From Actinokineospora xionganensis (GTDB lineage Bacteria > Actinomycetota > Actinomycetes > Mycobacteriales > Pseudonocardiaceae): a stretch of DNA of 64,000 nt. A program made the translations under genes and the position numbers. Positions within the stretch are counted from its first letter, which is position 1, and every line of letters begins with the position of its first letter. Below, in pieces: positions 20,997-44,671 of the stretch. The notes under the pieces were generated by a model. The model made no database searches and was not told the origin of the DNA. It saw only the letters and a program-made list of their open reading frames with translations. The stretch covers positions 124,001-188,000 of the forward strand of contig NZ_JABVED010000009.1 in the NCBI RefSeq assembly GCF_014323725.1, written 5' to 3'.

Positions 20997-22151
20997 GTGC
21001 GGTTACTTCGAGTGGTCTCCGGTCCCGTGTTCCTTTCGGTGTTCGTCACCGGGGTGGTCGTCGCGGTTCTCGAGCGATCGGTGGCCCAGGTCGCGCTGGG
21101 GCTGGCGGGCGCGGTGGCCGGGCACCTCATCGGTCTTCTCTCGCTCCAACTGGGACTGCTGCTCGGCGCCATCGCCCTCCGGGCCCGCGTGCACCGGGTC
21201 GTGATCGGGATCGGCGCCCGCCTGAAGGACTGGACGACGCCGAGGCGGGTTGTCGTGCTGCGTGCGGTGCCGGTGTTCCTGTCGGTGTCGGTGGGTCCTG
21301 GGATCGCTCCCGCCCGCAAACGTATGTGGGGCGCCGCGCTGTGTTCGATGGCCGCTGGTGTGGCTGCCGCGGTCGTGGTCGGGTTCAACGCCCTCGCCGC
21401 GCCTTCCGGCTTCCGGCTGGGCCTCGCGGTTGCCTGCGTGATCACGGTGGGGCATGCCTTCATCCCGCGGAAGACCGCGACGTCCACCTCCACCGGTTGG
21501 CTGGTCTTCAAGCTCCCGGCCCTCACCGGTGTCCGCGCCCAGCAGCTGGATGCCGCTCCGCTGGTGGGCCAGACCGTCGACGCCGCCCAGGAGGGCAAGC
21601 TCGACCTCGCCGCCGAACTGGCGGCAAGGCTGCGCGACGAATACCCGGCGCTGCGCACGGCGACGGCGGCGCGGGTCCTGGTGCTGCAAGCCCAGGGCCG
21701 CTACGCCGAGGCGATGATGGTGGCGATGACGATCGTCGAGGACCGCGACCAGACGCCCGCCGAAGCCGCGGTGGCGTTCGCCGCCTTGGGCGGGTTGGCG
21801 TGCGCCACGGTGGAAGCCGGTCAGCTCGACGCGGAGATCGGACTGGGCACGGCGGCCAAGGCCATCGAGAACGCGGTGACCCTCGGATACCCCGAGCACA
21901 AGCTGAACGGCACCCGTGCCCTGCACGAACTGTTGTCGGGCAACACCAGCCGCGCGATCTCCCTGGCCCGCCTGGCGGCGGAATCCGGCGACGACCGCCT
22001 GGGCCGGGCCGACGACCTCGCGACCCTGGCCCGCGCGCACATGACCGCGGGCGACAACCGCTCAGCGCGCACCGCGTTGGCCGAGGCGGAGAAGCTGGTC
22101 CCGTGGTGGCCGCGCGTGGCGGTCCTGCGCAGCCGCCTCGACATCGCCTGA
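20997..22151 (+). CDS. membrane protein with C-terminal TPR-like repeats, function unknown
   Basis: 384 residues from a GTG. The first 170 hold about four hydrophobic segments (roughly 8-30, 38-60, 110-132, 138-155). The remaining soluble half is alpha-helical with TPR-like units (AAELAARLRDEYPAL..ARVLVLQAQGRYAEAMMVAM, DDLATLARAHMTAGDNRSARTALAEAEKL). The segment VHRVVIGIGARL resembles the fold around M50 site-2 proteases, but no HExxH is present (GHLIG stands there), so proteolysis is not supported. A TAGCGT -10-like box ends nine bases before the start. Possible scaffold or degenerate M50 protein. Confidence 0.6.
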   Translation: MRLLRVVSGPVFLSVFVTGVVVAVLERSVAQVALGLAGAVAGHLIGLLSLQLGLLLGAIALRARVHRVVIGIGARLKDWTTPRRVVVLRAVPVFLSVSVGPGIAPARKRMWGAALCSMAAGVAAAVVVGFNALAAPSGFRLGLAVACVITVGHAFIPRKTATSTSTGWLVFKLPALTGVRAQQLDAAPLVGQTVDAAQEGKLDLAAELAARLRDEYPALRTATAARVLVLQAQGRYAEAMMVAMTIVEDRDQTPAEAAVAFAALGGLACATVEAGQLDAEIGLGTAAKAIENAVTLGYPEHKLNGTRALHELLSGNTSRAISLARLAAESGDDRLGRADDLATLARAHMTAGDNRSARTALAEAEKLVPWWPRVAVLRSRLDIA

Positions 22152-22178: not shown

Positions 22179-22637
22179 TCAGGGACGCGAAGTCCGGCGC
22201 GACCGGACCCGGGTGAGGACGGCTCCGACCACCAGACCGAAAGCCACATGGTCGGCTACCTGAGGCAACACCGGCAGCTCCCTGATCCGCGGAAACCGGC
22301 GCCCGACCAGGCCCAGGTCCAGCGCCGCGATGGCGAGACCCGCCACCGCGCCCGCCGCCGTGGTGTGCCGACTCGGCAGGGTCGCGGCGAGGGCGGTCGC
22401 CCAGCCCAGGGACAAGGCCGTGTGGGCGACGGCAGCTCCGGCGAGCAGGCGTCCGCGGCGGGTTTCGTTCGGCAGGAGCAGGGAGCCCGCGGCGCGGGTG
22501 GCCGCCAACGGGTCCTGGCCCGCGACGATCGCCCACGCGGTCGAAGGAGCCCCGCTCAGCACCCCGGCCACGGCGCCCGCGAGCAGGCCGTCGCGGAGTG
22601 CGCCGCGGGAGGGGTGGCGAGGATCGTGCGGGTCCAC
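22179..22637 (-). CDS. small integral membrane protein at the end of the siderophore operon
   Basis: 152 residues from a GTG that lies 17 bases after the stop of the decarboxylase gene. Four hydrophobic stretches (around 15-35, 58-82, 90-107, 125-143) and a basic tail. No family recognised. It stands where vibrioferrin-type operons would be expected to supply transport functions but is far too short for an MFS exporter. It may be an accessory subunit or unrelated. Only 27 bases separate it from the convergent TPR membrane gene. Confidence 0.6.
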   Translation of the reverse strand: MDPHDPRHPSRGALRDGLLAGAVAGVLSGAPSTAWAIVAGQDPLAATRAAGSLLLPNETRRGRLLAGAAVAHTALSLGWATALAATLPSRHTTAAGAVAGLAIAALDLGLVGRRFPRIRELPVLPQVADHVAFGLVVGAVLTRVRSRRTSRP

Positions 22638-22654
22638 GGTGTCAGTGTCGCACT

Positions 22655-23866
22655 TCAGCAGTCGCCGACGTGGGTGACGGCGGGGCGGTCGTGCATCAGG
22701 AACTCGACATGGCTGATGTTCTGCGCGTACGCGCCAGCCAGCGCGAACACCACTTTGTCGCCGATCCGCACCCGGCCCGCCCGGACCGAGCGCGCCAGCA
22801 CGTCCTTCGGGGTGCACAGTTGACCGACGAAGGTGATCGCGTCGTCGGGGCCGCAGCCGGGGCGGTCCCACGGGCGGTCCCAACGCCGCACCGGCAGCAC
22901 CGCGAGCGGCTGGTCGTGGCCCTTCGCGGCCGGTGTGCGCAGGTGGTGCGTCCCGCCCGCGCAGATGGCGAACCATTCCCCGTGGCTCCGCTTGATATCC
23001 AACACTTCCGTTGCGTACCAACCGGAGTAGGCGCTCACCGCGCGGCCCGGCTCGATCCGCACCACGGGGCCCTCAGGGAGCGCGCTCAGGTGCCTGGCGT
23101 ACTCGGCCCAGTCGAAGACCCGTTCGGGCCGGACGTAGTCGACGTTCATCCCGCCGCCGATGTTGACCTCGGCGAGCGGAAGCCCGTGCCTGCGCGCGTA
23201 ATCGATGGCCCAGTGATGGATGGCGGCGCCCTGTGCGGCGCAGGGCTCAGGGTCCGACCCGCTCGCCAGGTGGGCGTGGATCCCGACGAACTCGATGCCG
23301 CGCGACGATTCCAGCGACGCCGCACAGGTGTCCGCTTCGGCCGGGTCCATGCCGAACGGGCTCGGGCGGCCCCCCATGGTCAGCACCCCGACGGCACCGC
23401 CGGTCGGCAGGTTCACTCGAAGCAGCACCCGCGCTCGGGTGCCCAGTTCCCTCGCCAGCACATCAAGCCTGCGCAGTTCGTTCAGGCTTTCCACGTGGAA
23501 CCGCTCCACCCGCGCGTGCAGCGCGGCGGTGAGTTCGGTGTCGGTCTTCCCTGGACCGCCGAAGGCGAGCGGGACGTCCGGGGCCATCTGCCGCACATGC
23601 GCCAGTTCCCCGCCGCTGGCCACCTCCAGGCCGTCGACATGCCGGGCGATCACCCGCAGCAGCCCCGGGTCGGGGTTCGCCTTCACGGCGTGGATCAGCT
23701 CCACGGACCCGAGCGCGGCCCGGATCGCCCCCGCATGGGCGTCGAGGTGCTCCAGGTCGTAGACGTAGGTAGGGGACCCGTCGAGCCCCCGGACCGCCTC
23801 CGTGACCCGAGCGGTCAGGGGCGTGCCCGCGGGCGCGAGGACTGCGGCGGGAAGGACAGTCGTCAA
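22655..23866 (-). CDS. type III-fold PLP-dependent decarboxylase, siderophore type (PvsE/SbnH-like)
   Basis: 403 residues of the ornithine/diaminopimelate decarboxylase fold III. The PLP lysine is K62 in IHAVKANPDPGLL. Other marks are the Gly-rich phosphate loop VNIGGGMNVDY, the EPGR motif at VRIEPGRAVSAYSGWY, and the C-terminal QLCTPKDVLAR with the second-subunit Cys and Asp. NIS siderophore operons use such enzymes to decarboxylate an amino acid unit (PvsE acts on the serine-derived part of vibrioferrin). The best start is the TTG at 23866, with AAAGGAAA six bases upstream, 11 bases after the previous stop. Fourth gene of the operon. Confidence 0.85.
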   Translation of the reverse strand: MTTVLPAAVLAPAGTPLTARVTEAVRGLDGSPTYVYDLEHLDAHAGAIRAALGSVELIHAVKANPDPGLLRVIARHVDGLEVASGGELAHVRQMAPDVPLAFGGPGKTDTELTAALHARVERFHVESLNELRRLDVLARELGTRARVLLRVNLPTGGAVGVLTMGGRPSPFGMDPAEADTCAASLESSRGIEFVGIHAHLASGSDPEPCAAQGAAIHHWAIDYARRHGLPLAEVNIGGGMNVDYVRPERVFDWAEYARHLSALPEGPVVRIEPGRAVSAYSGWYATEVLDIKRSHGEWFAICAGGTHHLRTPAAKGHDQPLAVLPVRRWDRPWDRPGCGPDDAITFVGQLCTPKDVLARSVRAGRVRIGDKVVFALAGAYAQNISHVEFLMHDRPAVTHVGDC

Positions 23867-23877
23867 CGGGTTTCCTT

Positions 23878-25635
23878 TCAGAGAAGCCGGCCGATCGGGT
23901 TGGGAAAGGGGACGTAACCCGCCTGCCGGTCGGCTTGGCGCTCCCACCGCACGAGCAGGTTCGTCTTGGCGGGCAACGGAAGCCCGGTCAACAGCGCCCG
24001 CAGCCGCGGCGGATGGCCCAAGGTCTGGCTCACCCCGGCCACGGTGTCGCCGAGATCGGACCACAGCCGGTCCTCGAACCGGCACATCCCCGGCGCGGAC
24101 TCGTGCACGAGATCGGCGAGGGCGCCCGCGAACTCGGTCAGGTGGTTGACGAAAAGGCAGTAGGCGATCCGGTTCCACGCGCGTTCGTCGTCGTAGGCCA
24201 CGGCTCGGGCGACGTCGGCGGGCAGCGCGGCGAGGGTGTCCAGGTGCCGGTCGGCGAGAAGTTTCGTGCCTTCAAGGTCACGGGCGAGCACGCGCACCGG
24301 CAGGTTGTCCGGGCCGAGCACGACCAGCACGTTCTGCGGGTGCGGTTCGAGCACGACACCGTGTTCGGCCCACAGGCTCAGCACCGGCGCGACGAGCAGG
24401 GTCGTGTAGCGGTGCCACCACCGCAGCGCCCACCCCTCGACATCCGGGTCCGCCGCCAGGTCGGCCAGTCGCGTCCGAGTCCCCGCAGGGTCGCGGTGTT
24501 CGGCGGCGAGCGCGCCCGCGAGGTGCACCTGGCCGCGGAGGTTCTCGCCCAGGCCGCCGCGCACGATGGTGCCGAATCCCTCCAGCAGCGCGTGCCGCCC
24601 CCGCTCGTCGCCGTAGCGGGTGGGGAGGTCGACAGTGCGCGCGGCGGGCTCGGGCAGGAACCCGAATCCCGGGTGTTCGCGCGTCACGTGCGCGCACGGT
24701 CCGGCCAGCAGCCGGGTGAGTTCGACCGCGCCCGCGAGTTCGTAATCGGCGTTCTTGCGCAGACAGTTGGTGATCCGCACGTTGAGGCTGGTCTTGAGGA
24801 ACAGGTCGGTTTCGGGCTGGTAGAGCGTGCGGACGCTGGCCGTCGGATGGAACTGGGGGCCCGTCTCGCCGAGGTCGCGCAGCGCGCCCGCCGCCATCGC
24901 CGTGCGCAGGACGGGCCCCGCGGCATCGTCGGCGGACATCAGCGCGAACTGCCACGGGTGCACCGCGAGCGCGCGGAATCCTTCTGGCACAGGCAAGTCC
25001 GCGGTCCGCGCGTGGCCGTCGAAGCCCACGTCGTCCATGACGTGGTCGCGAACGAGTTCCGCGGGTGCGGCCAGCCAACGCAGCGGGAACGCCGACCGCG
25101 CCTCGGGGGCGTAACGGCGCCACTGCGCGGAGCCGCCGGACCGCGACTTCGGCGTCGGGTGGCGGGGATGCCCGGCCAGCAAGGACTGTTCGGAGTCGAG
25201 GTAGGCGCCCGCGGCTCCCGGCACCGGCCGGTCGGCGGACTTCGGCCGGGTGCGCAGGAGGTCATCGAGCGCGTCACGGCTGGCCGCGACCTGCCCGGCG
25301 AACTCGTCGTTCCCGTGACCGGTGCGCAGCGTGAGTTCGGCGTCGATCAGGGCGGCAAGTTCGTCGGCGCCGCACGACCGCCACCCGCCGTCGGCTTGCT
25401 CGGCCTGGACGGGCCCGGTGAAGCGGTGGGCCGCGACGGTTGACGCGCGCCGCAGCCGAGCCCGCAGCGTGTTGCCGGTGTGTGGCAGGTGCACCACGAG
25501 GAAGCGGTCGACGATCCCCGTCCGCCGTTCGGGTCCGGCGACTTCCCGGACCAGGCAGCCGAGAATCGTGTGGGCGGTCAGCAGATCAGCGGTGTCGACG
25601 CTCAGACCCGCCGCGGCGGTGGTCGAGGCGGTCAA
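23878..25635 (-). CDS. IucA/IucC-type NIS siderophore synthetase (PvsD-like)
   Basis: 585 residues. Family marks: SLLAGHPRHPTPKSRSG (ATP-binding His/Lys region), ALAVHPWQF, HPTASVRTLYQPETDLFLKTSLNVRITNCLRKN, and EPHPQNVLVVLGPDNLPVRVLARDLEG in the FhuF-like part. NIS synthetases adenylate a carboxylate of citrate or another acid and join it to an amine or alcohol. The TTG at 25635 was chosen: GGAG stands six bases upstream and it starts two bases past the preceding gene's stop; sequence further upstream in this frame is shadow. One of two NIS synthetases in the operon, as in pvs clusters. Confidence 0.9.
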   Translation of the reverse strand: MTASTTAAAGLSVDTADLLTAHTILGCLVREVAGPERRTGIVDRFLVVHLPHTGNTLRARLRRASTVAAHRFTGPVQAEQADGGWRSCGADELAALIDAELTLRTGHGNDEFAGQVAASRDALDDLLRTRPKSADRPVPGAAGAYLDSEQSLLAGHPRHPTPKSRSGGSAQWRRYAPEARSAFPLRWLAAPAELVRDHVMDDVGFDGHARTADLPVPEGFRALAVHPWQFALMSADDAAGPVLRTAMAAGALRDLGETGPQFHPTASVRTLYQPETDLFLKTSLNVRITNCLRKNADYELAGAVELTRLLAGPCAHVTREHPGFGFLPEPAARTVDLPTRYGDERGRHALLEGFGTIVRGGLGENLRGQVHLAGALAAEHRDPAGTRTRLADLAADPDVEGWALRWWHRYTTLLVAPVLSLWAEHGVVLEPHPQNVLVVLGPDNLPVRVLARDLEGTKLLADRHLDTLAALPADVARAVAYDDERAWNRIAYCLFVNHLTEFAGALADLVHESAPGMCRFEDRLWSDLGDTVAGVSQTLGHPPRLRALLTGLPLPAKTNLLVRWERQADRQAGYVPFPNPIGRLL

Positions 25636-25637
25636 GA

Positions 25638-27311
25638 TCAGCTCCTGGGGCGCAGATAGTTCGGGCCGGCGTGGCGGTAGTGCTTGTTGATGTCCGTGCA
25701 GCCGAGGCGGTGCTTGGGCAGCAGGGTCCCGGCGGTGACCATCGCCTTGACCGGTAAGTGTTCCGCCTCCAGCACCCGCCTGCGCACCGCGTCGGCTGCC
25801 GCGACGGACCTGGCGTCGGCCACGTCGGTCCAGCGGAGGAGCGCCTGCTCGATCCTGGTCCGCAGCAAGGCGAACAGCCGCGCCCGGCGCGCCAGGTCGT
25901 CGCCCGCGTGCTCGACGATCAGCGCGCCCGCGCACAGGTGCAGGGTGATCGTGATGAACATGTCGGCGAGGTCGTCATCGCCGGTGACGCTCATCCGCTG
26001 GTCGGCGAACGAGTCCGGCGTCACAGGCAAGCCGAGCGCTGCGGAGAGGCGCGTGCAGTCGATTCGCGCGCCGTCGTCGTCCTTGTAGACCAGGCGAAGC
26101 CAGGGATCGCCGCCTGCCATGGCGACGGTGATGTTCTGCTGGTGCGCCTCCAGCGCGACGCCGTAGCGGACCCACAGTGCGACATGCCAGTCGAGCAGGA
26201 GGGTCAGGTACGTGTCGAGCCAGGCCTCGGTGTCGCCGCCGGTGTGCCGGGCCGCGAACGTGTCGAGCAGTGTGGCGCCGGGACGCGCCGGGTCTTCGGC
26301 GAGCAGCGCGGCGACCGGTGCGAGGGTGTCGCTCGCGAGGTCGGCGGGATAGCGCCGGACCAGCACGGCGAGCAGGTCGTCGGCGCTGTCGAGCCAGACG
26401 GACTCATCGGCGAGCAGAATCCGCTCGCGCAGCGCGGGTTCGCGGTCCAGGATCGCCCGCAGCAGCCGGTGCACGGTGTCGCCGTCGGCCAGGGTGCCCG
26501 CCTTGATGGTGCGGCGGTTGCGTTTGCCGAGTGTCGCGGTCGCCATCGGCAGTTTGAGATGGACGCCGGGCTCATCGATGAGCGCGACCGTGCGGGTCGA
26601 CAGCGTCGGTGTCGCGAGCAGCGCCCCGTCCAGGTTCGCTGTCAACGGATGCACCGGCACCGCGAGCCGACCAGGGGCCGCTTCGGGCCACCAGTCCGGG
26701 AGACCGGCGGCCAGCGACGGGGAGAGCCGCACCGAGTCGCGGGGGACGATGGTCCAGCCGATCTTGAGGTCCGGCAGGAACTCCGGGGCGTAGCGGCGCA
26801 GGTCGGCCTCGTCGAGACCCCAGCGGCAGCGGCCCGTCGGGTGCACGGGGTGGTCGCGCAGCGCGGCCACCGACTCGTGGTGCAGAAGCTCGCGAAACCC
26901 CACGGCACCCGACTCGGCCCGGATCTTGGCGTACAACTCGGGGCGCGCGGTCTCGTGCAGCCGCACGACGGCAAGCGTTTGCGCGCACTCTTCGACGAAG
27001 TCCGCCCAGCCCTGTTCCGCCTCCGGGTCGTCCGCGGGCGCGAGTGCGACCAACACCTGGGCGAGCGTGTCGAGCACCTGCCCGGCGACGACGGCCGAAG
27101 GATGCGCGAGTCGGTACTCGGCCAGGAATCCGTCCGGTGCGACCGGCAGGCGCACCTCCCGATTCCCCGGCAGCGGCGCGCACCACCAGGGCCCGGTCCA
27201 GTCGTGGTCGCCCGGCCGCTCACCGAGCGCTCCCCGCTCGGCCAGACCGAGGTGGTCCTCGCGCAGCAGCGCGTCCAGCACGCGACGCAGCAAATCGGCC
27301 TCGACGGTCAC
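25638..27311 (-). CDS. IucA/IucC-type NIS siderophore synthetase (PvsB-like)
   Basis: 557 residues. Recognisable elements are HPTGRCRWGLDEADLRRYAPEF, VPVHPLTANLDGALL, KLPMATATLGKRNRRTIKAGT (the substrate/ATP segment where most members have T-S-x-R-T), and ALEAHQQNITVAM. The C-terminal part is the FhuF-like domain, ending KHRLGCTDINKHYRHAGPNYLRPR. It condenses a polycarboxylate with an amine or alcohol. The GTG start overlaps the stop of the ATP-grasp gene by four bases (GTGA). The two synthetases differ clearly from each other and so should catalyse different couplings. Confidence 0.9.
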   Translation of the reverse strand: MTVEADLLRRVLDALLREDHLGLAERGALGERPGDHDWTGPWWCAPLPGNREVRLPVAPDGFLAEYRLAHPSAVVAGQVLDTLAQVLVALAPADDPEAEQGWADFVEECAQTLAVVRLHETARPELYAKIRAESGAVGFRELLHHESVAALRDHPVHPTGRCRWGLDEADLRRYAPEFLPDLKIGWTIVPRDSVRLSPSLAAGLPDWWPEAAPGRLAVPVHPLTANLDGALLATPTLSTRTVALIDEPGVHLKLPMATATLGKRNRRTIKAGTLADGDTVHRLLRAILDREPALRERILLADESVWLDSADDLLAVLVRRYPADLASDTLAPVAALLAEDPARPGATLLDTFAARHTGGDTEAWLDTYLTLLLDWHVALWVRYGVALEAHQQNITVAMAGGDPWLRLVYKDDDGARIDCTRLSAALGLPVTPDSFADQRMSVTGDDDLADMFITITLHLCAGALIVEHAGDDLARRARLFALLRTRIEQALLRWTDVADARSVAAADAVRRRVLEAEHLPVKAMVTAGTLLPKHRLGCTDINKHYRHAGPNYLRPRS

Positions 27312-28534
27312 GCCGCCGCCACGGGTTCGATCACCCATCGGCGCTCAGCCAGGAACCCGTCGACCACAGTGTCCACTATGGAGCGATCCGGGCCGATCGC
27401 GTGCACCGCGGCGAGGTAGTCCCGGTTCGTCCCGTGCAAATCCGCCGTGACGCCGACCTCGCGCATCCGCCGGTGCCCCAGCCGGACCCCGTCGACGGTG
27501 AACTCCTGGTCCGCGGGCGCCTCGACCAGGACACCCGCCCGGTCCGCCCGCACGTAGTCCACCCTGGCGTGCCGCGGCAGCCGCACCGGATCGGGCAGCC
27601 CGGCGGGCAGCCGCTGCCCCTGGTGCAGCCGGATCAGCTCGGCGAACAGGTCGACGCCGAGCAGGTCGGCGCAGATCAGGTCCATGGTGTCGCCGATCAG
27701 CCGGTAGTTGACCTCCACGATCCGCGCCCGGTCGCCGTCGATGACGAACTCCGTGTGGCACGCCCCGAGGCCCACCCCGAGCGCGGCGAGTTGAGCCCGC
27801 AGGTGCGCCTCGACAGCGGGCGGCAGCCGCGGGTCCCAGTCGAGCCGGGTCTCGGCGAAGTGCGGGGGCGGGCCGAGGGTCGTCCGCCAGGAACCGAAGT
27901 GGTACAGCGATTCCCCGTCGCCGAGCGTCTCGTAGGTGCGCACGTCGCCCGCCAGATACTCCTCGACGACCAGCGTCGCCGCGGGCCTGCGGGCCCGGAT
28001 CTCGGCGACCCTCGCTGTCAGCTCGGCGAGGTCGGCCACGAGCAGCGCGTCCTCGCTGGCCACCCCTTCCCGCGGCTTGACCACCGCGGGAAACGGCACC
28101 GCCAAACCATCCACACAGGACATTCCGGGATCGAGCTGGGCGCACCGCACGACATCCAGCCCGGCCGCGGCCAGGACCGCCCGGGTGAGCGCCTTGTTCT
28201 TGCAGCGCACCGCCGCCGCCCACGGCTTCGCGGGCAGCCCGAGGAGTTCGGCGGCGAGCGCGGTCGCGGCCTGCAGGTGGTCGCTGTTACTCATCAGCGC
28301 CGAGGGCGCCCCGAACCGGGGCGCCAGGTCGTGTACCCGGGCGGCGACCGCGCCCGCGTCGCGGACATCCGCCTCGACCACGACCGGAGGACAGTCGAGA
28401 TCGCGGTACGCCTCGCGGTGCCGGTCGGCGCGGTCGGTCAGGACCACGGTCTCCAGCCCGAGCCGCGCGGACGCCGGGAGCAGCCCGTGGGTGACCGCGT
28501 CGGTCGGGATGAGCGCGGTGAGGTAGAGCCGCAA
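27308..28534 (-). CDS. ATP-grasp ligase of the siderophore operon (PvsA-like)
   Basis: 408 residues. ATP-grasp layout: N-terminal preATP domain (MRLYLTALIPTDAVTHGLLPASARLGLETVVLTD), then KNKALTRAVLAAAGL, FPAVVKPREGVASEDALLV (nucleotide Lys), LVVEEYLAGDVRTYETL, and the metal-binding FVIDGDRARIVEVNYRLIGD. Such carboxylate-amine ligases add an amino acid to the siderophore skeleton (alanine in vibrioferrin, by PvsA). First gene of the operon; the best start is the TTG at 28534 with GGGGGG upstream. An iron box lies 22 bases further upstream. Confidence 0.85.
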   Translation of the reverse strand: MRLYLTALIPTDAVTHGLLPASARLGLETVVLTDRADRHREAYRDLDCPPVVVEADVRDAGAVAARVHDLAPRFGAPSALMSNSDHLQAATALAAELLGLPAKPWAAAVRCKNKALTRAVLAAAGLDVVRCAQLDPGMSCVDGLAVPFPAVVKPREGVASEDALLVADLAELTARVAEIRARRPAATLVVEEYLAGDVRTYETLGDGESLYHFGSWRTTLGPPPHFAETRLDWDPRLPPAVEAHLRAQLAALGVGLGACHTEFVIDGDRARIVEVNYRLIGDTMDLICADLLGVDLFAELIRLHQGQRLPAGLPDPVRLPRHARVDYVRADRAGVLVEAPADQEFTVDGVRLGHRRMREVGVTADLHGTNRDYLAAVHAIGPDRSIVDTVVDGFLAERRWVIEPVAAA

Positions 28535-28556
28535 CGGTGCCCCCCGAGATCGACGG

Positions 28557-28598
28557 TTAGGTTAGCTATACCTAACGATCTTCCCGGGGCAAGGTCAA
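28557..28598 (-). promoter_or_regulatory. DtxR/IdeR iron box and -35 of the siderophore operon
   Basis: 28557-28575 reads TTAGGTTAGCTATACCTAA and agrees with the 19-bp DtxR/IdeR consensus at 16 positions, including both six-base outer arms. On the minus strand a -35-like TTGACC lies at 28593-28598, which places the box over the -10 region. Iron-loaded repressor bound here would block the operon, so the five genes should be switched on under iron limitation. Confidence 0.85.
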
Positions 28599-28630: not shown

Positions 28631-31162
28631 TCAGGCGAGCACGACCTTGCCCAGTTCCGCGTGTGTGGCGAGCAAACCGTGCTTGGGCAGCACCCGCGCC
28701 GTGACCCCGAGCGCGCCCGCGTGCGGAAGCGAGATCTCCGCCGAATACCGGCCCGACCCGATCGGCCGCATAGTGGCGGTCACCACGTCGCTCAGGTCGT
28801 CGGCGTCGCTGACCCGGCCGACCACCGCCTGCACCTCGACGTCGTTCGGGTCGAGCCCAGCCAGGTCGACCGAGGCCTGAACCTGGACCCGGTCGCCGAT
28901 CACCGGCATCTGCCCCTCGTCGAGCGACAGCTCGCAGCTGGTGACCCGGATGTGCGGCCAGGAACCGGAGAGCCGACGGCGGTACTCCGCGAGGTCCTTG
29001 GCGGCCCGGAAGCCGTCGGACTGCGCGAGCACCCCCGCGGTGGCGGCGGGCGCGTAGTGCGCCTCGACGTACTCGCGGACCATGCGTGAGGCCTGCACCT
29101 GCGGGCCGAGCGACATCAGGGTGTGGCGCACCATCGCCATCCAGCGGCTGGGCACCCCGCCCTGGTCGCGGTCGTAGTACAGCGGCGCGACCTGCGACCC
29201 GAGCAGCTCATAGAGCGCGGCCGCCTCCAGGTCGTCGCGGCGGACCGGGTCGGTGACACCGTCGGCGGTGGGGATGGCCCAGCCGTTGCTGCCGTCGTAG
29301 AACTCGTCCCACCAACCGTCCCGAATGGACAGGTTGAGGCCGCCGTTCAGCGCCGCCTTCATGCCGGAGGTGCCACACGCCTCCAGCGGGCGCATCGGGT
29401 TGTTCAGCCAGACATCGCAGCCCCAGTACAGGTACCGGGCCATCGACATGTCGTAGTCGGGCAGGAAAACGATGCGGTGGCGGACCCCGGCGTCGTCGGC
29501 GAAGCGGACGATCTGCTGGATCAGCGCCTTGCCGCCGTCGTCGGCCGGGTGCGACTTGCCCGCCACGACCAACTGCACCGGGCGGTCCGGGTGCAGCAGC
29601 AGTGCCCGCAGCCGCTCCGGGTCGCGGAGCATGAGGGTGAGCCGCTTGTACGTGGGCACCCGGCGGGCGAAGCCGACGGTCAGCACGTCCGGGTCGAAGA
29701 CCGAGTCGGTCCAGTTCAGTTCGAGCGCCGACGCGCCGCGCTGCAGCCAGGCCGCGCGCACCCGCCTGCGGACCTCGCCGACGAGCCGCTCACGCAGCCC
29801 GCACCGCAGCTTCCACAGTTCGGCGTCGCTCATCGACTCGATGACCGACGACGGGTCCTCCTCGTCGAACGCCGAAGCCATCTCCCGCGCGGCCCACGTG
29901 GGACCGTGGACACCGTTGGTGACCGACGAGATCGGCACCTCGTCGGTGTCGAAGCCCGGCCACAGGCCGCCGAACATGGACCGGCTCACCGCACCGTGGA
30001 GCTTGGACACGCCGTTGGCCCGCTGCGCGAGCCGAAGACCCATGTGGGCCATGTTGAACATGCCCGCGTTCTCCTCCGCGCCGAGCGCGAGGATGCGGCG
30101 GAGATCGATCCCGGGAAGCAGGGACTCGTCGCCGAAGTAGTGCTGCACGAGATCGATCGGGAACCGGTCGATACCCGCGGGGACGGGGGTGTGCGTGGTG
30201 AACACCGTCCCCGCGCGAACCGCGGACAGCGCCTGGTCTACATCGAGGTTGTGCCCGGAGACCAGTTCGCGGACACGCTCCAGGCCGAGGAATCCCGCGT
30301 GGCCCTCGTTGGTGTGGAACACCTCGGGCTGCGGGGTGCCGGTCAGCTCGCAGTAGGTGCGCACGGCCCGGACGCCGCCGATGCCCGCGAGGATCTCCTG
30401 GCGGATCCGGTGGTCCTGGTCGCCGCCGTAGAGCCGGTCGGTGACCCCGCGAAGATCGTCGGAGTTCTCCTCGATGTCCGAATCGAGAAGCAGCAGCGGC
30501 ACCCGGCCGACCTGCGCCTTCCAGATCCGGGCCCGCAGGATGCGCCCGCCCGGCATCGCGACGTGCACGAGGATGGGCGCCCCGGACGGCTCGGCGAGCG
30601 GCTCCAGCGGCAGGCCGCTGGGGTCGATGACCGGGTAGTGCTCGACCTGCCAGCCGTCGAGGGAGAGCGACTGGCGGAAGTAGCCGGAGCGGTAGAGCAG
30701 GCCGACACCGATCAGCGGCACGCCGAGGTCCGACGCGGCTTTGAGGTGGTCACCGGCCAGCACGCCCAGCCCGCCGGAGTAGTTCGGCAGCGCCTCGGTG
30801 ACGCCGAACTCCATCGAGAAGTAGGCGATGGCCGCGGGGAATCTCGTCCCGTCGACCTCCAGGGCGCGGTTCTGGTACCAGCGCGGCGCCTGCATGTACT
30901 GGCGCAGGTCCTCGGAGATCTCCCGGACGCGGCTGAGGAACTCCTCGTCGCCCGCGAGCCGTTCGAGCCGCTCCGCGGGCACCTGGGCGAGCAGGTGCAG
31001 CGGGTCCCCGCCGACGCGCTGCCAGATGTCCTGGTCGACGGCGGCGAAGAGATCCTGGGTGGGCGGGTGCCACGTCCAGCGCAGGTTCGTGGCAAGCGTG
31101 CCGAGATCGGCAAGCTGCTCGGGAAGACCGGCACGGACGGTGAATCGGCGTACGGCTCTCAC
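28631..31162 (-). CDS. glgP: alpha-glucan (glycogen) phosphorylase, GT35
   Basis: 843 residues of the short bacterial/archaeal GT35 type (M. tuberculosis Rv1328 is of similar size). The N-terminal part is LPEQLADLGTLATNLRWTWHP (DUF3417), followed by IAYFSMEFGVTEALPNYSGGLGVLAGDHLKAASDLG. PLP binds to the Lys of RPLEACGTSGMKAALNGGLNLS. It releases glucose-1-phosphate from alpha-1,4 chains in the cytosol. The GTG at 31162 was chosen because the upstream frame has no family match. It is divergent from glgE across a 296-bp gap, the same arrangement as Rv1327c/Rv1328. Confidence 0.93.
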   Translation of the reverse strand: MRAVRRFTVRAGLPEQLADLGTLATNLRWTWHPPTQDLFAAVDQDIWQRVGGDPLHLLAQVPAERLERLAGDEEFLSRVREISEDLRQYMQAPRWYQNRALEVDGTRFPAAIAYFSMEFGVTEALPNYSGGLGVLAGDHLKAASDLGVPLIGVGLLYRSGYFRQSLSLDGWQVEHYPVIDPSGLPLEPLAEPSGAPILVHVAMPGGRILRARIWKAQVGRVPLLLLDSDIEENSDDLRGVTDRLYGGDQDHRIRQEILAGIGGVRAVRTYCELTGTPQPEVFHTNEGHAGFLGLERVRELVSGHNLDVDQALSAVRAGTVFTTHTPVPAGIDRFPIDLVQHYFGDESLLPGIDLRRILALGAEENAGMFNMAHMGLRLAQRANGVSKLHGAVSRSMFGGLWPGFDTDEVPISSVTNGVHGPTWAAREMASAFDEEDPSSVIESMSDAELWKLRCGLRERLVGEVRRRVRAAWLQRGASALELNWTDSVFDPDVLTVGFARRVPTYKRLTLMLRDPERLRALLLHPDRPVQLVVAGKSHPADDGGKALIQQIVRFADDAGVRHRIVFLPDYDMSMARYLYWGCDVWLNNPMRPLEACGTSGMKAALNGGLNLSIRDGWWDEFYDGSNGWAIPTADGVTDPVRRDDLEAAALYELLGSQVAPLYYDRDQGGVPSRWMAMVRHTLMSLGPQVQASRMVREYVEAHYAPAATAGVLAQSDGFRAAKDLAEYRRRLSGSWPHIRVTSCELSLDEGQMPVIGDRVQVQASVDLAGLDPNDVEVQAVVGRVSDADDLSDVVTATMRPIGSGRYSAEISLPHAGALGVTARVLPKHGLLATHAELGKVVLA

Positions 31163-31458
31163 GGAGCACGACACTAGCGGCCAGACTGGATCGAGCAAGC
31201 CACCAGTGGTGGCCCACTCGGTGACGGCCCGTGCCCACAAGGCCCATGACCAGCGCCGACGCCCCATCAGCGGCCGTCACCACCGGCGAAACATCGCCAG
31301 TATCCGACCGGCGCCCAAGGGGACCGTGACGCGGGCCGACCACGGTTACCCACCAAACCGCACCATGACAAGCCAGGTGACCACCCCTTTGAATTTCGGG
31401 GAGGCGGACAGGCAAGGCAGACTAGGAAGCAGGACCCGCGACGAGAGGAGCCGAACCG
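31163..31458. other. divergent promoter region of glgP and glgE
   Basis: A 296-bp gap that must hold promoters for both genes. The only clear structure is the short palindrome CCACCA-G-TGGTGG at 31200-31212 upstream of glgP, a possible operator. GAGAGGAGCC at 31444-31453 is the glgE ribosome site. No gene is visible here. Confidence 0.4.
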
Positions 31459-33409
<1,951 letters not shown>

Positions 33410-33420
<11 letters not shown>

Positions 33421-33826
33421 CCTTCGGGCGGGTCCCGCTGCACTGCCGGTCGCCCGCGACGATCAGGCCGCCGATCAGCGGGAACATCCAGCCGGGCGAC
33501 GCGGGCAGCAGCGACACCGCCACGACGCCCCAGGCCGCCAGGCCCCAGCCGAAGGCGGCGGGGACGCGGTGGCCCTGATTCGCCGACCAGACGACCAGCG
33601 CGCCGAACAGCAGCAGCGGCGCGGCGAAGCTGCCGGGGGTGAGCCAGAAGGCCTCCGCCACGGGTAACCGTTCGGGCGTCGGCTTGAGTGTCACGGCGTT
33701 CCACCAGCCGAGCGAGAACACCTCCGACCAGGCCGAACCGCGGGAGAACGGGGTGGCGACCAGATGGAAAGCGCTGCCCGCGATGGCGACCCAGCCCGCC
33801 ACGCGGGTAATGTTTACGTTGTTCAC
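33410..33826 (-). CDS. small four-helix membrane protein, possibly DUF6463-like
   Basis: 138 residues from a GTG, with four hydrophobic segments (about 6-24, 52-72, 78-102, 106-122). The opening [19 protein letters not shown] and [14 protein letters not shown] resemble small actinomycete membrane proteins often divergent from TetR genes (DUF6463-like, from memory). It is divergent from a tetR gene; the start codon lies inside one of two similar palindromes, so it is almost surely the regulator's target. Upstream in-frame sequence overlaps tetR antisense and was excluded. Confidence 0.6.
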
Positions 33827-33851
33827 ATGGAGGATGTTAACGATGTCAACA
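33811..33851. promoter_or_regulatory. two similar TetR-type operators over both start codons
   Basis: 33811-33827 (TGTTTACGTTGTTCACA) and 33835-33851 (TGTTAACGATGTCAACA) share the pattern TGTTnAC-N3-GTnnACA; the second is the better palindrome. Their centres are 24 bp apart. The first covers the GTG of the membrane-protein gene and the second covers the ATG of tetR, so one protein could shut both genes. Confidence 0.6.
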
Positions 33852-34427
33852 TCGGCTGGCAAGCCATACCACCACGGCGATCTGAGACGCGCGCTGATCA
33901 CCGCCGCCCGCGAACTGGTCCGCGAGACCGGACCGGCGAAACTCACCCTGCGCGGGGTCGCCGCACGCGCCGAGGTGTCCCCGGCCGCGCCCTACCGGCA
34001 CTTCGCCGACCGCGACGCGCTGCTCGCGGGCGTGGCCGAAGAGGGCTTCGCCGAACTGGCCGAAGCCATGACACCGAAGGAGCCGAGCCTCGACGCGCTG
34101 CACCAGGTCGGCGCCGCGTACCTCAAGTTCGCCCTGCGCGAGCCGCAGCTCTACCGGCTCATGTTCGGCCCGGTCGACCGCGCCGCGCACCCCGGGCTCG
34201 CCGCGGCGGAGCGCCGCCTCACCGAGATCTTCGGCGAGGCGCTGCGAAAAGCCCAGATCGCGGGAGTCGTCCAGCCGCAAGATCCCGAAGACGTCATGCT
34301 GACCATACGGTGCGTGATGCACGGCCTGACATCGCTCGTGGTGGACGGCCAGATCGCCACCGAGCAGGCCGCCGACGCCGCCAGACGGGTGATGTCCGTC
34401 GTCGACCGGGGCCTGCTTCCGCGCTGA
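33843..34427 (+). CDS. TetR/AcrR family regulator with WHG-type C-terminal domain
   Basis: 194 residues. TetR helix-turn-helix at about 10-55: HHGDLRRALITAARELVRETGPAKLTLRGVAARAEVSPAAPYRHFADRDALLAGVAEEGF. The effector domain contains GAAYLKFALREPQLYRLMFGP, as in the WHG (TetR_C_13) group. The ATG at 33843 has GGAGG nine bases upstream; an earlier ATG at 33834 lies within that ribosome site. Likely represses itself and the divergent membrane gene through the overlapping palindromes. treS starts 50 bases downstream on the same strand, so read-through could link it to trehalose metabolism. Confidence 0.85.
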   Translation: MSTSAGKPYHHGDLRRALITAARELVRETGPAKLTLRGVAARAEVSPAAPYRHFADRDALLAGVAEEGFAELAEAMTPKEPSLDALHQVGAAYLKFALREPQLYRLMFGPVDRAAHPGLAAAERRLTEIFGEALRKAQIAGVVQPQDPEDVMLTIRCVMHGLTSLVVDGQIATEQAADAARRVMSVVDRGLLPR

Positions 34428-34477
34428 CCGCGTGGTACGCATGAACAAACCGCCAACACAACGAGGGCGACTACGAG

Positions 34478-36282
<1,805 letters not shown>

Positions 36283-36286
<4 letters not shown>

Positions 36287-37617
36287 GCACCCGTCCCCTG
36301 CACGCCGTCGAGTCCCTGGCCGGGGACCTGCGCGCCTGGCTGCCCGCCCAGCGCTGGTTCGCGGCGAAGGGCACCGACCTGACCGACGTCTTCGTCGAGC
36401 GCGCGGTGATGCTGGCCGACGGCGACCCGGCGCTGGTGCACGCACTGATCGACGCCGACGGCGAGCGCTACCAACTGCTCATCGGAGTCCGCGACGACCC
36501 GCCCGAGCACCTGCACCACTGCGTGATCGGCAGGCTCGGCGAGTCCTACGCCTACGACGCCACCCAGGACGGTGAGCTGATGGCCGGGCTGCTCGCCCTG
36601 CTCGACGCCGGGGCCGACCATGGCGGCATCCACTGGACCAAGGAGCCCGACGTCGAGCTGGTCACGGGGCTGCGCGCGCGGCCGATCGGCGTCGAGCAGA
36701 GCAACACCTCGATCGTGTTCGGCTACCACTACATCCTCAAGCTGTTCCGCCGTCCCGGCCCGCGGCCAAACCGCGACGTCGAGCTGCACCGGGCGCTGCA
36801 CCGGGTGGGCAGCGCACAGATCGCCGACCCGATCGCGGTCGTCGAGGACGACGAGCTGGTGTTCGGGTTCGCCCAGCGCTACCTGGCCGACGCCGCCGAG
36901 GGGTGGGCGACGGCCACGGCCAGCGTCCGCGACCTGCTGGCCGAGGGCGACCTGCACGCGGGCGAGGTCGGCGGCGACTTCGCGGGCGAGTCCTCTCGGC
37001 TCGGCATGGCGGTGGCCCAGGTCCACGCGGACCTGGCCGCGACCATGGGCACGGAGGTGGTCAGCCCCGACCGGCTCACGGAGGCCGTGGAGGTGATGCA
37101 CGGCAGGCTCGACGCCGTCACCGCCGAGGTTCCCGAGCTGGCCGAGTTCGAGCCGATGCTGCGCGCGGCCTTCGACGCCGTCCGCCATCTGCGCGAGAGC
37201 CAGCCGATCCAGCAGATCCACGGGGACCTGCACCTGGGCCAGGTGCTGCGCACGGCCACCGGCTGGGTGCTGATCGATTTCGAGGGCGAGCCCGCCGCGC
37301 TGGCGACCGACCGGGCGAAGACCAGGTCACCGCTGCGCGACGTCGCGGGCATGCTGAGGTCCTTCGATTACGCCGCGTTCGCCCTGCTCGGGGCCGACGA
37401 CGACCACCAGCGGACCACCCGGGCGACCGAGTGGAGCGACCGCAATCGTGCGTCTTTCTGCGAGGGCTACGCCTCGGTGGCCGGGGCCGACCCGCGCGAC
37501 CAGGCGGTGCTCCTGCGGGCGTTCGAGCTGGACAAAGCCGTCTACGAGGTGGCCTACGAACACCGCAACCGGCCCGACTGGGTGCGGGTACCACTGACCG
37601 CATTGCGCCGAACTTGA
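36283..37617 (+). CDS. mak: maltokinase
   Basis: 444 residues of the Pep2/Mak aminoglycoside-kinase-like fold. An N-terminal cap ([11 protein letters not shown], typical of maltokinases) is followed by the kinase core with [12 protein letters not shown] (catalytic D315) and LIDFEGEP (metal-binding D332). It makes maltose-1-phosphate from maltose and ATP for GlgE. It starts at a TTG that overlaps the treS stop (TTGA). A TnpB-type insertion element begins directly after its stop codon, separating it from the glgB unit with which it is commonly linked. Confidence 0.93.
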
Positions 37618-41691: not shown

Positions 41692-43101
41692 GTGCGCCTG
41701 CCCATCGCTGTTGGTCGACCCGTTCCGGTGCTGTTGGCATTGGCTCTGGCCGCGACGGTCACGGCGTGCACGAGCGCGATCCCGGGAAAGGCCACCAGCC
41801 AGGGTTCCGTGGTCTCCCGAGAGGACCCGAACCAGCCGGGCGGGGTCGATCCGTCCTTCGTGGAGAACACCGACAACGGTGAGATCGACCGGCTCGCCGC
41901 GACGGTGATCACCGATGTGCGGACCTACTGGACCGAGCAGTTCCCGAAGACGTTCGGCGAGGAGTTCAACGACCTCAAGGGCGGCTATTTCTCCGTCGAC
42001 ACCGCCGACGCCGACAGCGACGCGCCACCGTGCGCGGACAAGGCCGACGAGGTGGAGGGCAACGCCTTCTACTGCCCGACAGCCGACGTCATCGCCTGGG
42101 ACCGGGCCGCGCTGCTGCCGGTGCTGCGCGACCGGTTCGGCGAGGCGGCGGTGATGCTGGTGCTCGCCCACGAGATGGGCCACGCGGTGCAGAACCGCAC
42201 GGGCGTCGGCCTCGACGCGCGCAAGGCGAACCCGAGCAAGTTCCCGACGATCCTGATCGAGGCGATGGCCGACTGCTACGCCGGTTCGTTCGTCCGCTGG
42301 GTCGCCGACGGCAAGGCCAAGCACCTGAACATCGCCAAGGAGCGGCTGGACTCGGCGCTGGAGTCGCTCATCAGCTTCCGCGACCCGATCGGCACCGAGC
42401 AGACCGACCGCGGCGCGCACGGCGACGCCTTCGACCGGGTGTCGGCGTTCCAGGACGGCTACGAGAAGGGCGTCGACCTGTGCGCCAAGATGACGGTCGA
42501 CAACCGCACGTTCACCCTGAGCGGGTTCATCGACGCCGGTGACCAGGCGCGCGGCGGGAACCTGCGGTTCGACCAGATCGTGCAGTCGATCTCGCCCGGG
42601 CTCAACACGTACTTCTCCACCCTGATGACCAAGTCGGGCAAGACCTGGGTCGAGCCGAAGATCACGACGGTCGACGACGCGCCCGAGTGCGGGGGCGGCG
42701 AGCAGGGGCCCGTCGCGTTCTGCGGGGACGGCGGGGCCCTGGAGATGGACGGCAAGAAGGAGCTGCCGGAGATCCACATCGAGATCGGCGACTACGCGAC
42801 CGGCGCGCTGCTCGCGAGCCGCTACGGGCTGGCCGCGCTCGCCGCGGCGGGCAAGCCCGTGGAGGGGCCCGACGCCCAGCGCTCGGCGGTGTGCCTGGCC
42901 GGGTCGTTCACCGGGTCCCTGTTCAGCGCGGAGCAGCGCTTCCTGTCCCCCGGCGATCTCGACGAGGCCATCCAGGTACTCCTCGACTACGACTACGCCG
43001 CCCGCGACGCCAAGGGCGACGCGATCGACGCGGGCTTCGACCGGGTGATCGCCTTCCGCGAAGGCTTCACCGGAGGCGGCGAGAAGTGCGGCCTGAGCTG
43101 A
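41692..43101 (+). CDS. putative zinc metallopeptidase lipoprotein, neutral zinc peptidase family
   Basis: 469 residues from a GTG. Lipoprotein signal with a lipobox ending in C26 (TVTAC), so anchored outside the membrane. The HExxH zinc motif is H160-H164 (LAHEMGHAVQ), with E190 in IEAMADCYAGS as likely third ligand. The pattern YWTEQF..AFYCP..IAWDR..AHEMGHAVQ..ADCYAGS is that of the YpfJ-type neutral zinc metallopeptidase family (PF04228). An unusual C-terminal half (from about 270) repeats a similar GFDRVIAFREGF ending. A -10-like CACACT lies six bases before the start. Followed by a paralogue at 43208. Confidence 0.85.
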   Translation: MRLPIAVGRPVPVLLALALAATVTACTSAIPGKATSQGSVVSREDPNQPGGVDPSFVENTDNGEIDRLAATVITDVRTYWTEQFPKTFGEEFNDLKGGYFSVDTADADSDAPPCADKADEVEGNAFYCPTADVIAWDRAALLPVLRDRFGEAAVMLVLAHEMGHAVQNRTGVGLDARKANPSKFPTILIEAMADCYAGSFVRWVADGKAKHLNIAKERLDSALESLISFRDPIGTEQTDRGAHGDAFDRVSAFQDGYEKGVDLCAKMTVDNRTFTLSGFIDAGDQARGGNLRFDQIVQSISPGLNTYFSTLMTKSGKTWVEPKITTVDDAPECGGGEQGPVAFCGDGGALEMDGKKELPEIHIEIGDYATGALLASRYGLAALAAAGKPVEGPDAQRSAVCLAGSFTGSLFSAEQRFLSPGDLDEAIQVLLDYDYAARDAKGDAIDAGFDRVIAFREGFTGGGEKCGLS

Positions 43102-43207
43102 AAAGGGCGGATCACCGCACGGTGGTTCGGACTCGGCAGTAGGGTGCAGCCAGGATGGACTGCCAGGTCCCCGGGGCCGGCGCGAGTTGAAGTGTGGGGA
43201 ATGACGG

Positions 43208-44671
43208 GTGCGTATCAGAGTCGCGTTGGCGCTCACCGCCGCGGTGATCATGGCAGCTCAGGTCGGCGGCTGCGCGGGCAAGCCGATCACCGGCAAGGCA
43301 CGCGCCGTCGGTGAGATCGACGCGGGCACCGCGGCGGGCATCCCGATCGACAACAGCCGCCCCAGCGGACCGAAGCAGGGCGTCGAGGACGCGAAGTTCC
43401 CGGTGGAGAACGCCGACAACGGCGAGATGGACCGCCTGGCGATGAACGCCGTGAGCGACATCTACGACTACTGGGCCGAGAAGATGCCCGCCGAGTTCGA
43501 GGGTCAGAAGTTCGAGCCGCTGCACCGACTGGTGTCCTACGACTCCAACGGCAAGCCCGTGAAGGTCTGCAACACCTCGACGGCGAAGCTGGTCAACGCC
43601 TTCTACTGCAGCCTCGACGACAGCGTGGCGTGGGACCGCGGTGTGCTGCTGCCGATGCTGGACAAGCAGTTCGGGCCGATGTCGGTGGTGACGGTGCTCG
43701 CCCACGAGATGGGCCACGCCGTGCAGTTCCGCCTGGGCGCGAAGAGCAACGTCAACCGAAGCACGCCGACGATCATCAAGGAACAGCAGGCCGACTGCTA
43801 CACCGGTTCGTTCTTCCGGCACGTCGCCGAGGGCAAGGCCAAGCACTTCGACATCAACGTGGGCGACGGCCTCAACCAGGTCCTCGCCACGATGTTCTTC
43901 ATCCGCGACCCGGCGGGCGAGTCGGCGAACAAGCAGGGCGCCCACGGTCTGGCCTTCGACCGCGTCTTCGCGTTCCAGGCGGGCTTCACCGAGGGCCCGC
44001 GCCGCTGCGCGAAGATGAACCAGGACGAGATCAACAGCCGCATCGCCGAGAAGGAACGCGACCCGCAGGACAAGCAAGCAGGCGGCCAGGTCGAGATCAG
44101 CGACAAGCGGATCATGACCAAGCTCGAGGAGAGCCTCGCCGAGGCGTTCAAGCGCACCGGCGCCGCGATGCCGAAGATCAAGGACAACGGCGCCACGTGC
44201 GCCGACGGCTCGTCCACCCCGCCCGCGACCTACTGCCCGGACGAGAACATCGTCGCCATCGATCTCGCCGCGCTGAAGAAGATCGCGACGCCGCCCAAGC
44301 GCGGCGAACCCGGCCTCGACACCGGCATCGGCGACTTCGCGGCGTTCGCTGAGATCGCCTCCCGGTACTCGCTGGCGATCCAGAAGTCGGTGGGCGCGTC
44401 GCTCGAGGGCGACAAGGCGGGCCTGCGCACCGCCTGCCTGACCGGGGCGTGGGCGGCCTTCACCGTCGACAAGACACCCAACGACGGCGACGAGAAACTC
44501 CACATCGCGGTGGGCGACCTCGACGAGGCGGTGGCCGAACTGCTGCTGGAGAAGAGCCTCATCGCCGCCGACGCCAAGGGCAAGCACGTCCCCTCCGGCT
44601 TCGCCCGGGTGGAAGCCTTCCGCGTCGGCTACTTCGACGGCGACAAGGGCTGCGCCAACCAGTTCAGCTGA
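43208..44671 (+). CDS. second zinc metallopeptidase lipoprotein, paralogue of the preceding gene
   Basis: 487 residues from a GTG, with a lipoprotein signal ending at C22 (QVGGC) followed by AGKPITGKA, similar to the first paralogue's TSAIPGKAT. HEMGH is at 166-170 with EQQADCYTGS after it. The two proteins align along their full length (ENADNGEMDRLA..YDYW, NAFYCSLDDSVAWDR, AHGLAFDRVFAFQAGF), so this is a tandem duplication that has since diverged, most in the region 280-330. Both keep the zinc site and so are probably active. A clean hairpin terminator follows. Confidence 0.85.
   Translation: MRIRVALALTAAVIMAAQVGGCAGKPITGKARAVGEIDAGTAAGIPIDNSRPSGPKQGVEDAKFPVENADNGEMDRLAMNAVSDIYDYWAEKMPAEFEGQKFEPLHRLVSYDSNGKPVKVCNTSTAKLVNAFYCSLDDSVAWDRGVLLPMLDKQFGPMSVVTVLAHEMGHAVQFRLGAKSNVNRSTPTIIKEQQADCYTGSFFRHVAEGKAKHFDINVGDGLNQVLATMFFIRDPAGESANKQGAHGLAFDRVFAFQAGFTEGPRRCAKMNQDEINSRIAEKERDPQDKQAGGQVEISDKRIMTKLEESLAEAFKRTGAAMPKIKDNGATCADGSSTPPATYCPDENIVAIDLAALKKIATPPKRGEPGLDTGIGDFAAFAEIASRYSLAIQKSVGASLEGDKAGLRTACLTGAWAAFTVDKTPNDGDEKLHIAVGDLDEAVAELLLEKSLIAADAKGKHVPSGFARVEAFRVGYFDGDKGCANQFS

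Follow-up and report, generated by a model that had tools for sequence, protein, structure and literature searches.

What kind of siderophore might be produced by an actinomycete that carries two synthetase genes of the NIS (nonribosomal peptide synthetase [NRPS]–independent siderophore) type behind an ATP-grasp gene? This question is raised by a minus-strand operon within positions 22179-28598 of a 64,000-nucleotide stretch of the Actinokineospora xionganensis genome (NCBI RefSeq assembly GCF_014323725.1, contig NZ_JABVED010000009.1, forward-strand positions 124,001 to 188,000), hereafter the window, which an earlier note had read as vibrioferrin-like. Our answer is that this is very probably an iron-repressed operon of the vibrioferrin (pvs) kind, the product of which would be a citrate/2-oxoglutarate hydroxycarboxylate siderophore, either vibrioferrin or a close analogue. 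Direct support comes from 1) gene content and order, 2) kinship of the ATP-grasp and NIS1 to PvsA- and PvsB-position proteins, respectively, 3) a second synthetase in the PvsD/AcsD clade, 4) a decarboxylase in the PvsE position, and 5) a DtxR-like box. The order of transcription is ATP-grasp, NIS1, NIS2, decarboxylase, and a small open reading frame (ORF), and the four genes named in the note (ATP-grasp, IucA/IucC, IucA/IucC, and fold III pyridoxal phosphate [PLP] decarboxylase) are all present on this strand in pvs order. The parts are as follows, all start codons being predictions.

27308-28534, minus strand: ATP-grasp ligase, predicted ortholog of PvsA-position proteins; TTG start, with GGGGGG upstream
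25638-27311, minus strand: NIS synthetase 1 (NIS1; IucA/IucC and FhuF domains), predicted ortholog of PvsB-position proteins; GTG start; Pfam IucA_IucC at 2.7e-25
23878-25635, minus strand: NIS synthetase 2 (NIS2; IucA/IucC and FhuF domains), PvsD/AcsD type; TTG start; Pfam IucA_IucC at 1.1e-48
22655-23866, minus strand: fold-III PLP decarboxylase, homolog of PvsE-position proteins; TTG start; Pfam Orn_Arg_deC_N at 2.1e-28
22179-22637, minus strand: small ORF of 152 amino acids, hydrophobic by eye; 17 nt downstream of the decarboxylase gene
28557-28575, no strand assigned: DtxR/IdeR-like operator box TTAGGTTAGCTATACCTAA; 22 nt before the ATP-grasp start codon

The ATP-grasp and NIS1 genes overlap by 4 nt, and gaps of 2 and 11 nt separate NIS1 from NIS2 and NIS2 from the decarboxylase gene, respectively. 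Both IucA_IucC/FhuF synthetases and the decarboxylase are well supported by Pfam. The Pfam match of the ATP-grasp protein is below threshold (19.6 bits vs. a cut-off of 27), and its identity therefore rests on homology to PvsA-position proteins. It shares 33-40% identity with those of Cupriavidus, Pantoea, and Vibrio fortis, and an alignment of 18 actinobacterial and Gram-negative rows has 53 invariant columns. In a search of the PDB, its only match among solved structures was the L-amino acid ligase 3vot (7e-11). Judged by its sequence, this protein is a predicted PvsA ortholog.

The two synthetases were placed in a tree of 43 NIS proteins, taken from the window, 8 of 20 actinobacterial loci (12 being left out), one Rhodococcus plasmid, and 23 references that were drawn from 10 plasmid records. 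Ten actinobacterial NIS1 proteins and three PvsB-position proteins form one clade (support 100/99), the sister group of which consists of Agrobacterium, Methylocystis, and Sodalis proteins from staphyloferrin-B-like and achromobactin-like loci. NIS1 is thus a predicted member of the PvsB clade. PvsD-position and AcsD-like proteins share one clade with NIS2 (96/96), and this clade cannot be split by pathway. Also inside the actinobacterial NIS2 group is a protein of Streptomyces, the locus of which encodes two synthetases but lacks an annotated ATP-grasp gene; this speaks against that group representing one pathway. Among solved structures, NIS1 is nearest to 7cbb (3.2e-10), with SbnC as its top NCBIfam model (61.8 bits vs. 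a cut-off of 700), and NIS2 is nearest to AcsD (1.2e-61), DesD being far weaker (2.5e-5). The possibility raised in the earlier note that the synthetases best match another characterized pathway falls away for NIS1 on the evidence of the tree; it is ambiguous for NIS2, given the clade shared by PvsD- and AcsD-like proteins and the nearest structure.

The decarboxylase shows 42-46% identity to PvsE-position proteins, and its nearest solved structure is 6knh (9e-70). We take 6knh and 6knk, the structures closest to it, to be SbnH. In a tree of 15 decarboxylase rows, two SbnH-like rows stand separate and an AcsE-like row is mixed with the PvsE-position rows. The actinobacterial rows form a clade of their own both for the decarboxylase and for NIS1. 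By sequence, then, the enzyme at the operon end is a predicted fold-III PLP decarboxylase of the PvsE kind. Going by the nearest structures only, achromobactin and staphyloferrin B would both still be candidates, and it is the NIS tree that settles NIS1. Since this genome, which is rated 99.83% complete, encodes only two PF04183 proteins, three-synthetase pathways do not fit.

How does the operon compare with known systems? It shares with pvsABCDE of Vibrio parahaemolyticus the order ATP-grasp, NIS, NIS, decarboxylase, with the roles of the genes partly as generally understood, and predicted iron control. It differs in that the exporter gene pvsC is absent and in that its box is DtxR-like, whereas the V. 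parahaemolyticus operon carries a Fur box. Plasmids of V. fortis, Pantoea, Cupriavidus, and Rhodococcus have the same order plus a major facilitator superfamily (MFS) gene between the synthetases. The Rhodococcus plasmids pRB29 and pRWAY01 share gene order, 60-67% identity over the four proteins, and a box at 3 mismatches, but have their own MFS gene between the synthetases as well as aldolase/citrate-lyase and siderophore-binding protein genes downstream. The Sodalis and Thalassospira (achromobactin-like) and Agrobacterium and Methylocystis (staphyloferrin-B-like) loci, labels that were assigned from gene content, likewise contain IucA/IucC synthetases, and a type III PLP enzyme is annotated in three of the four. 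In contrast to the window operon, they have three synthetases (the third of Thalassospira being cut by the stretch end) and diamino-acid genes, with no annotated ATP-grasp in the stretches. In another actinomycete, Streptomyces avermitilis, avsABCD (SAVERM7320-7323) were termed vibrioferrin-like polyhydroxycarboxylate siderophore genes in 2022; according to the accessible part of that report, they comprise four genes, three siderophore synthetase components followed by a diaminopimelate-decarboxylase-like gene (PMC9394381), a likeness set by gene order and names rather than by alignment.

We wondered how widespread such operons might be. Among 61 genomes, our own included, 34 contained a match to the ATP-grasp protein at E<=1e-3, with clear full-length orthologs in 3: A. 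xionganensis itself (G000), G014 (83%), and G023 (66%). The other matches listed are at 24-41% and belong to the ATP-grasp superfamily. NIS2 had matches at the same threshold in 127 of 394 genomes of the class, many of them other NIS types. A contig scan matched the pattern in at least 591 stretches, at least 582 of which were confirmed as ATP-grasp relatives, and the best 80 of these, all from actinomycetes, were kept for operon comparison. Their hosts include Lentzea (70%, the highest value for ATP-grasp), Arthrobacter, Sinomonas, Pseudonocardia, Amycolatopsis, Micromonospora, Streptomyces, and Kitasatospora. ATP-grasp is accompanied by NIS1 in 78/80, by NIS2 as well in 73/80, and by the decarboxylase in order in 71/80. 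An MFS gene lies between the synthetases, as in pvsABCDE, in 32 of the 73, and none is found there in 41. As for the seven relatives without NIS2 in order, L117, L148, L149, L152, and L160 reach a contig end less than 3 kb from ATP-grasp, L098 has all four genes and failed only the distance rule, and L102 (Micromonospora tarensis) has ATP-grasp alone: the following 9 kb gave no synthetase match, perhaps because the operon is broken or the contig misassembled. The rarity in actinomycetes that the earlier note had implied does not hold, given the number of ATP-grasp relatives and the published S. avermitilis case: the operon type is widespread in this group and already noted in print, which makes the present work annotation rather than discovery.

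Six loci of one family, f31 (L062, L065, L068, L070, L071, and L072; 6 of 20 further loci), contain ATP-grasp, NIS1, and NIS2 without an adjoining decarboxylase gene, and two other f31 genomes (G198 and G379) keep the decarboxylase in place. We considered and rejected the idea that some members of the operon family have lost the decarboxylase: since all six genomes have a decarboxylase match of 52-59% elsewhere, this step need not be lost.

Is the operon controlled by iron? The box that the earlier note had placed ahead of the first gene is there, and the genome encodes a DtxR-family protein, with one Fe-dependent repressor domain above cut-off (G000:C45:60484-60663) and two below. With mismatches counted against a hand-entered DtxR/IdeR consensus, the box has 3. 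The 6.8-Mb genome contains 9 sites with no more than 3, this one included, and the consensus read backwards as a control gives none. We also inspected 79 regions upstream of the 80 best relatives, one being too short for use; where a binding-protein gene precedes an operon, the region ahead of that gene was taken. A box with at most 3 mismatches precedes 27/79 operons and one with at most 4 precedes 36/79, compared to no region at 3 and at most one region at 4 with 50 shuffled palindromes. An operator-like box in the promoter region together with a DtxR-family repressor in the genome makes this operon a predicted member of the DtxR/IdeR regulon, and it is probably iron-controlled.

The pathway that we propose would run as follows. 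In iron-replete cells, the box would be occupied by a DtxR/IdeR repressor, and iron starvation would free it. AcsD couples ATP-activated citrate to L-serine, and NIS2 would do likewise. The PLP enzyme would then strip the seryl carboxylate to leave an ethanolamine unit, the ATP-grasp enzyme would append an amino acid (alanine in vibrioferrin), and NIS1 would append 2-oxoglutarate or a similar dicarboxylate. Because primary metabolism supplies these building blocks, no precursor genes would be needed. Export would have to proceed via a transporter that is not closely orthologous to PvsC. Since NIS2 is kin to AcsD, with the biochemistry just described, we prefer the citrate-serine ester by NIS2 as the first step, unlike reviews of the pathway. 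One of these, in the part available, has serine decarboxylation by PvsE, amide bonds made by PvsB and PvsD, and an ester made by PvsA, and gives the enzyme functions as untested proposals (PMC5577590); the available part of a second repeats this scheme (PMC6836290).

The genomic site of the operon bears on its origin. On one side lie alpha-glucan genes, beginning with an alpha-glucan phosphorylase (glgP) and GlgE; within window positions 28631-37617, a Pfam scan that took in part of the ORFs revealed phosphorylase, GlgE, and maltokinase. On the other side lies the following gene.

20997-22151, plus strand: gene with no Pfam family, resembling tetratricopeptide repeat (TPR) proteins by eye

Sixteen genomes of the genus were compared, and two of them, G000 and G014, carry the operon beside glgP. 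In 9 of the other 14, no more than 1.5 kb separates the TPR-like gene from the end of glgP, and this interval is free of operon genes; the stretches examined for the remaining 5 did not show the TPR-like gene, and 2 of these stretches stop at a contig edge. The operon is thus an islet at this site, which could reflect either horizontal gain or repeated loss.

Several points weigh against a pvs operon. Identity to the pvs-like proteins of V. fortis, Pantoea, and Cupriavidus is just 30-46%, so substrates may differ, and the likeness to V. parahaemolyticus pvs is one of gene order, sequences having been compared with pvs-like operons of other Gram-negatives. The names of these reference operons were taken from gene position and annotation; the sole ATP-grasp annotated as PvsA is that of Pantoea. 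Trees of NIS2 and the decarboxylase fail to part pvs from achromobactin. There is no PvsC-type exporter gene in the operon, where a mere 2 nt separate the synthetases, nor did a search of G000 and G014 for one give a match at E<=1e-3. No siderophore uptake gene was found among 28 Pfam-scanned ORFs, which are part of those in the window, and 52/79 related upstream regions have no box at 3 mismatches or fewer. The PvsC query performed well in the three genomes chosen as carriers (1e-82 or better in 3/3) and gave weak matches only in G023 and G253. We did not use the missing MFS gene to exclude pvs membership because 41/73 relatives also have none at that place.

Some of these points lead to a citrate siderophore peculiar to the clade and distinct from vibrioferrin, with another amino acid, amine, or dicarboxylate. 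This is quite possible, if short of probable, and it overlaps with the close analogue that we ourselves allow for: NIS substrate choice can shift within types, the identity to Gram-negative pvs-like proteins is modest, and actinobacterial NIS1 and decarboxylase keep to their own clades, but gene set and order are conserved and the operon has no further precursor gene with a family match. A stronger version, in which the pvs-like operons of actinobacteria form a clade with a citrate siderophore of its own that has yet to be described and the operon, in this genus, moved into a housekeeping locus without PvsC and with unrelated export, is one we consider possible but less likely than not. Did the operon instead lose its function, as a dead or exporter-less remnant from which a secreted siderophore is no longer made? 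The undetected exporter would favor this, all the more as the query works in carrier genomes; against it, none of the four reading frames is interrupted and all have conserved counterparts in G014 (83-93%), many relatives with ordered synthetases do without the MFS gene too, and the box is in front of the operon, and we find a remnant improbable.

An achromobactin- or staphyloferrin-B-type pathway, suggested by AcsD as the nearest solved relative of NIS2, by the presumed SbnH structures nearest to the decarboxylase, and by the distant SbnC match of NIS1, is less credible still. At the Sodalis, Agrobacterium, and Methylocystis loci, diamino-acid genes accompany a set of three synthetases, whereas the present genome has two, with an ATP-grasp, and NIS1 falls outside their clade; synthetase count and NIS1 clade thus largely refute both pathways. 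Desferrioxamine is a common NIS type in actinomycetes, but a locus of that type is practically out of the question here: gene content refutes it, with two synthetases and an ATP-grasp, and with monooxygenase and acyltransferase absent from the operon according to Pfam, and NIS2 is much closer to AcsD than to DesD. The reading that we retain is that of an operon of the pvs kind.

The small ORF at the operon end has no Pfam or NCBIfam match. Its relatives occur in 4 of 60 other genomes, including G007 of the same genus (66%, G007:C1:28762-29157), which has neither a close ATP-grasp ortholog nor the operon. It is possibly cotranscribed with the operon and probably outside the siderophore pathway. 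As a candidate for the missing exporter, it was rejected because it has no family match and is also found without the operon.

Elsewhere in the genome, a box-bearing locus at G000:C12:220250-222077 (L080) contains ABC ATPase and siderophore-binding protein genes. It holds the sole match in the genome, a weak one (28%), to the binding protein encoded beside the Rhodococcus pvs-like operon, which offers a lead to an uptake protein for the product. A second siderophore locus lies at G000:C56 ~101984-134750 (L084 and L085), read except for 119501-126999, and encodes an NRPS of ~3600 amino acids, chorismate-binding and AMP-binding enzymes, an MFS protein, a binding protein, two FecCD permeases, and an ABC ATPase. 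Three DtxR-like boxes are found near its start, and another precedes a ferritin-like gene. In the window itself, two successive putative neutral zinc metallopeptidase genes (41692-44671) are perhaps a tandem duplication.

Related reports exist for other actinomycetes. In the accessible parts of the texts, vibrioferrin is the nearest cluster (18%) to an antiSMASH region of Streptomyces tunisialbus (PMC7385001), and a report on Streptomyces sp. GQFP, which is locus L118 of our best 80 relatives, cites a vibrioferrin paper for siderophore clusters (PMC9022529). A Glutamicibacter strain secretes an alpha-hydroxycarboxylate siderophore according to a CAS-plate color test, and Streptomyces sp. S073 is credited with one in the same paper, the accessible part of which gives neither structure nor gene cluster for either (PMC12093950). 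The accessible parts of PMC7824959, PMC4431377, PMC13388484, PMC9989332, and PMC11219617 do not mention an actinobacterial pvs-like operon, and among the results listed in literature searches, with most subscription journals outside their scope, there was no isolated and structurally solved product of one. By gene content, the vibrioferrin-type biosynthesis known from marine Gram-negative bacteria is common among actinobacteria, and a single isolated product would annotate a large actinobacterial family at once.

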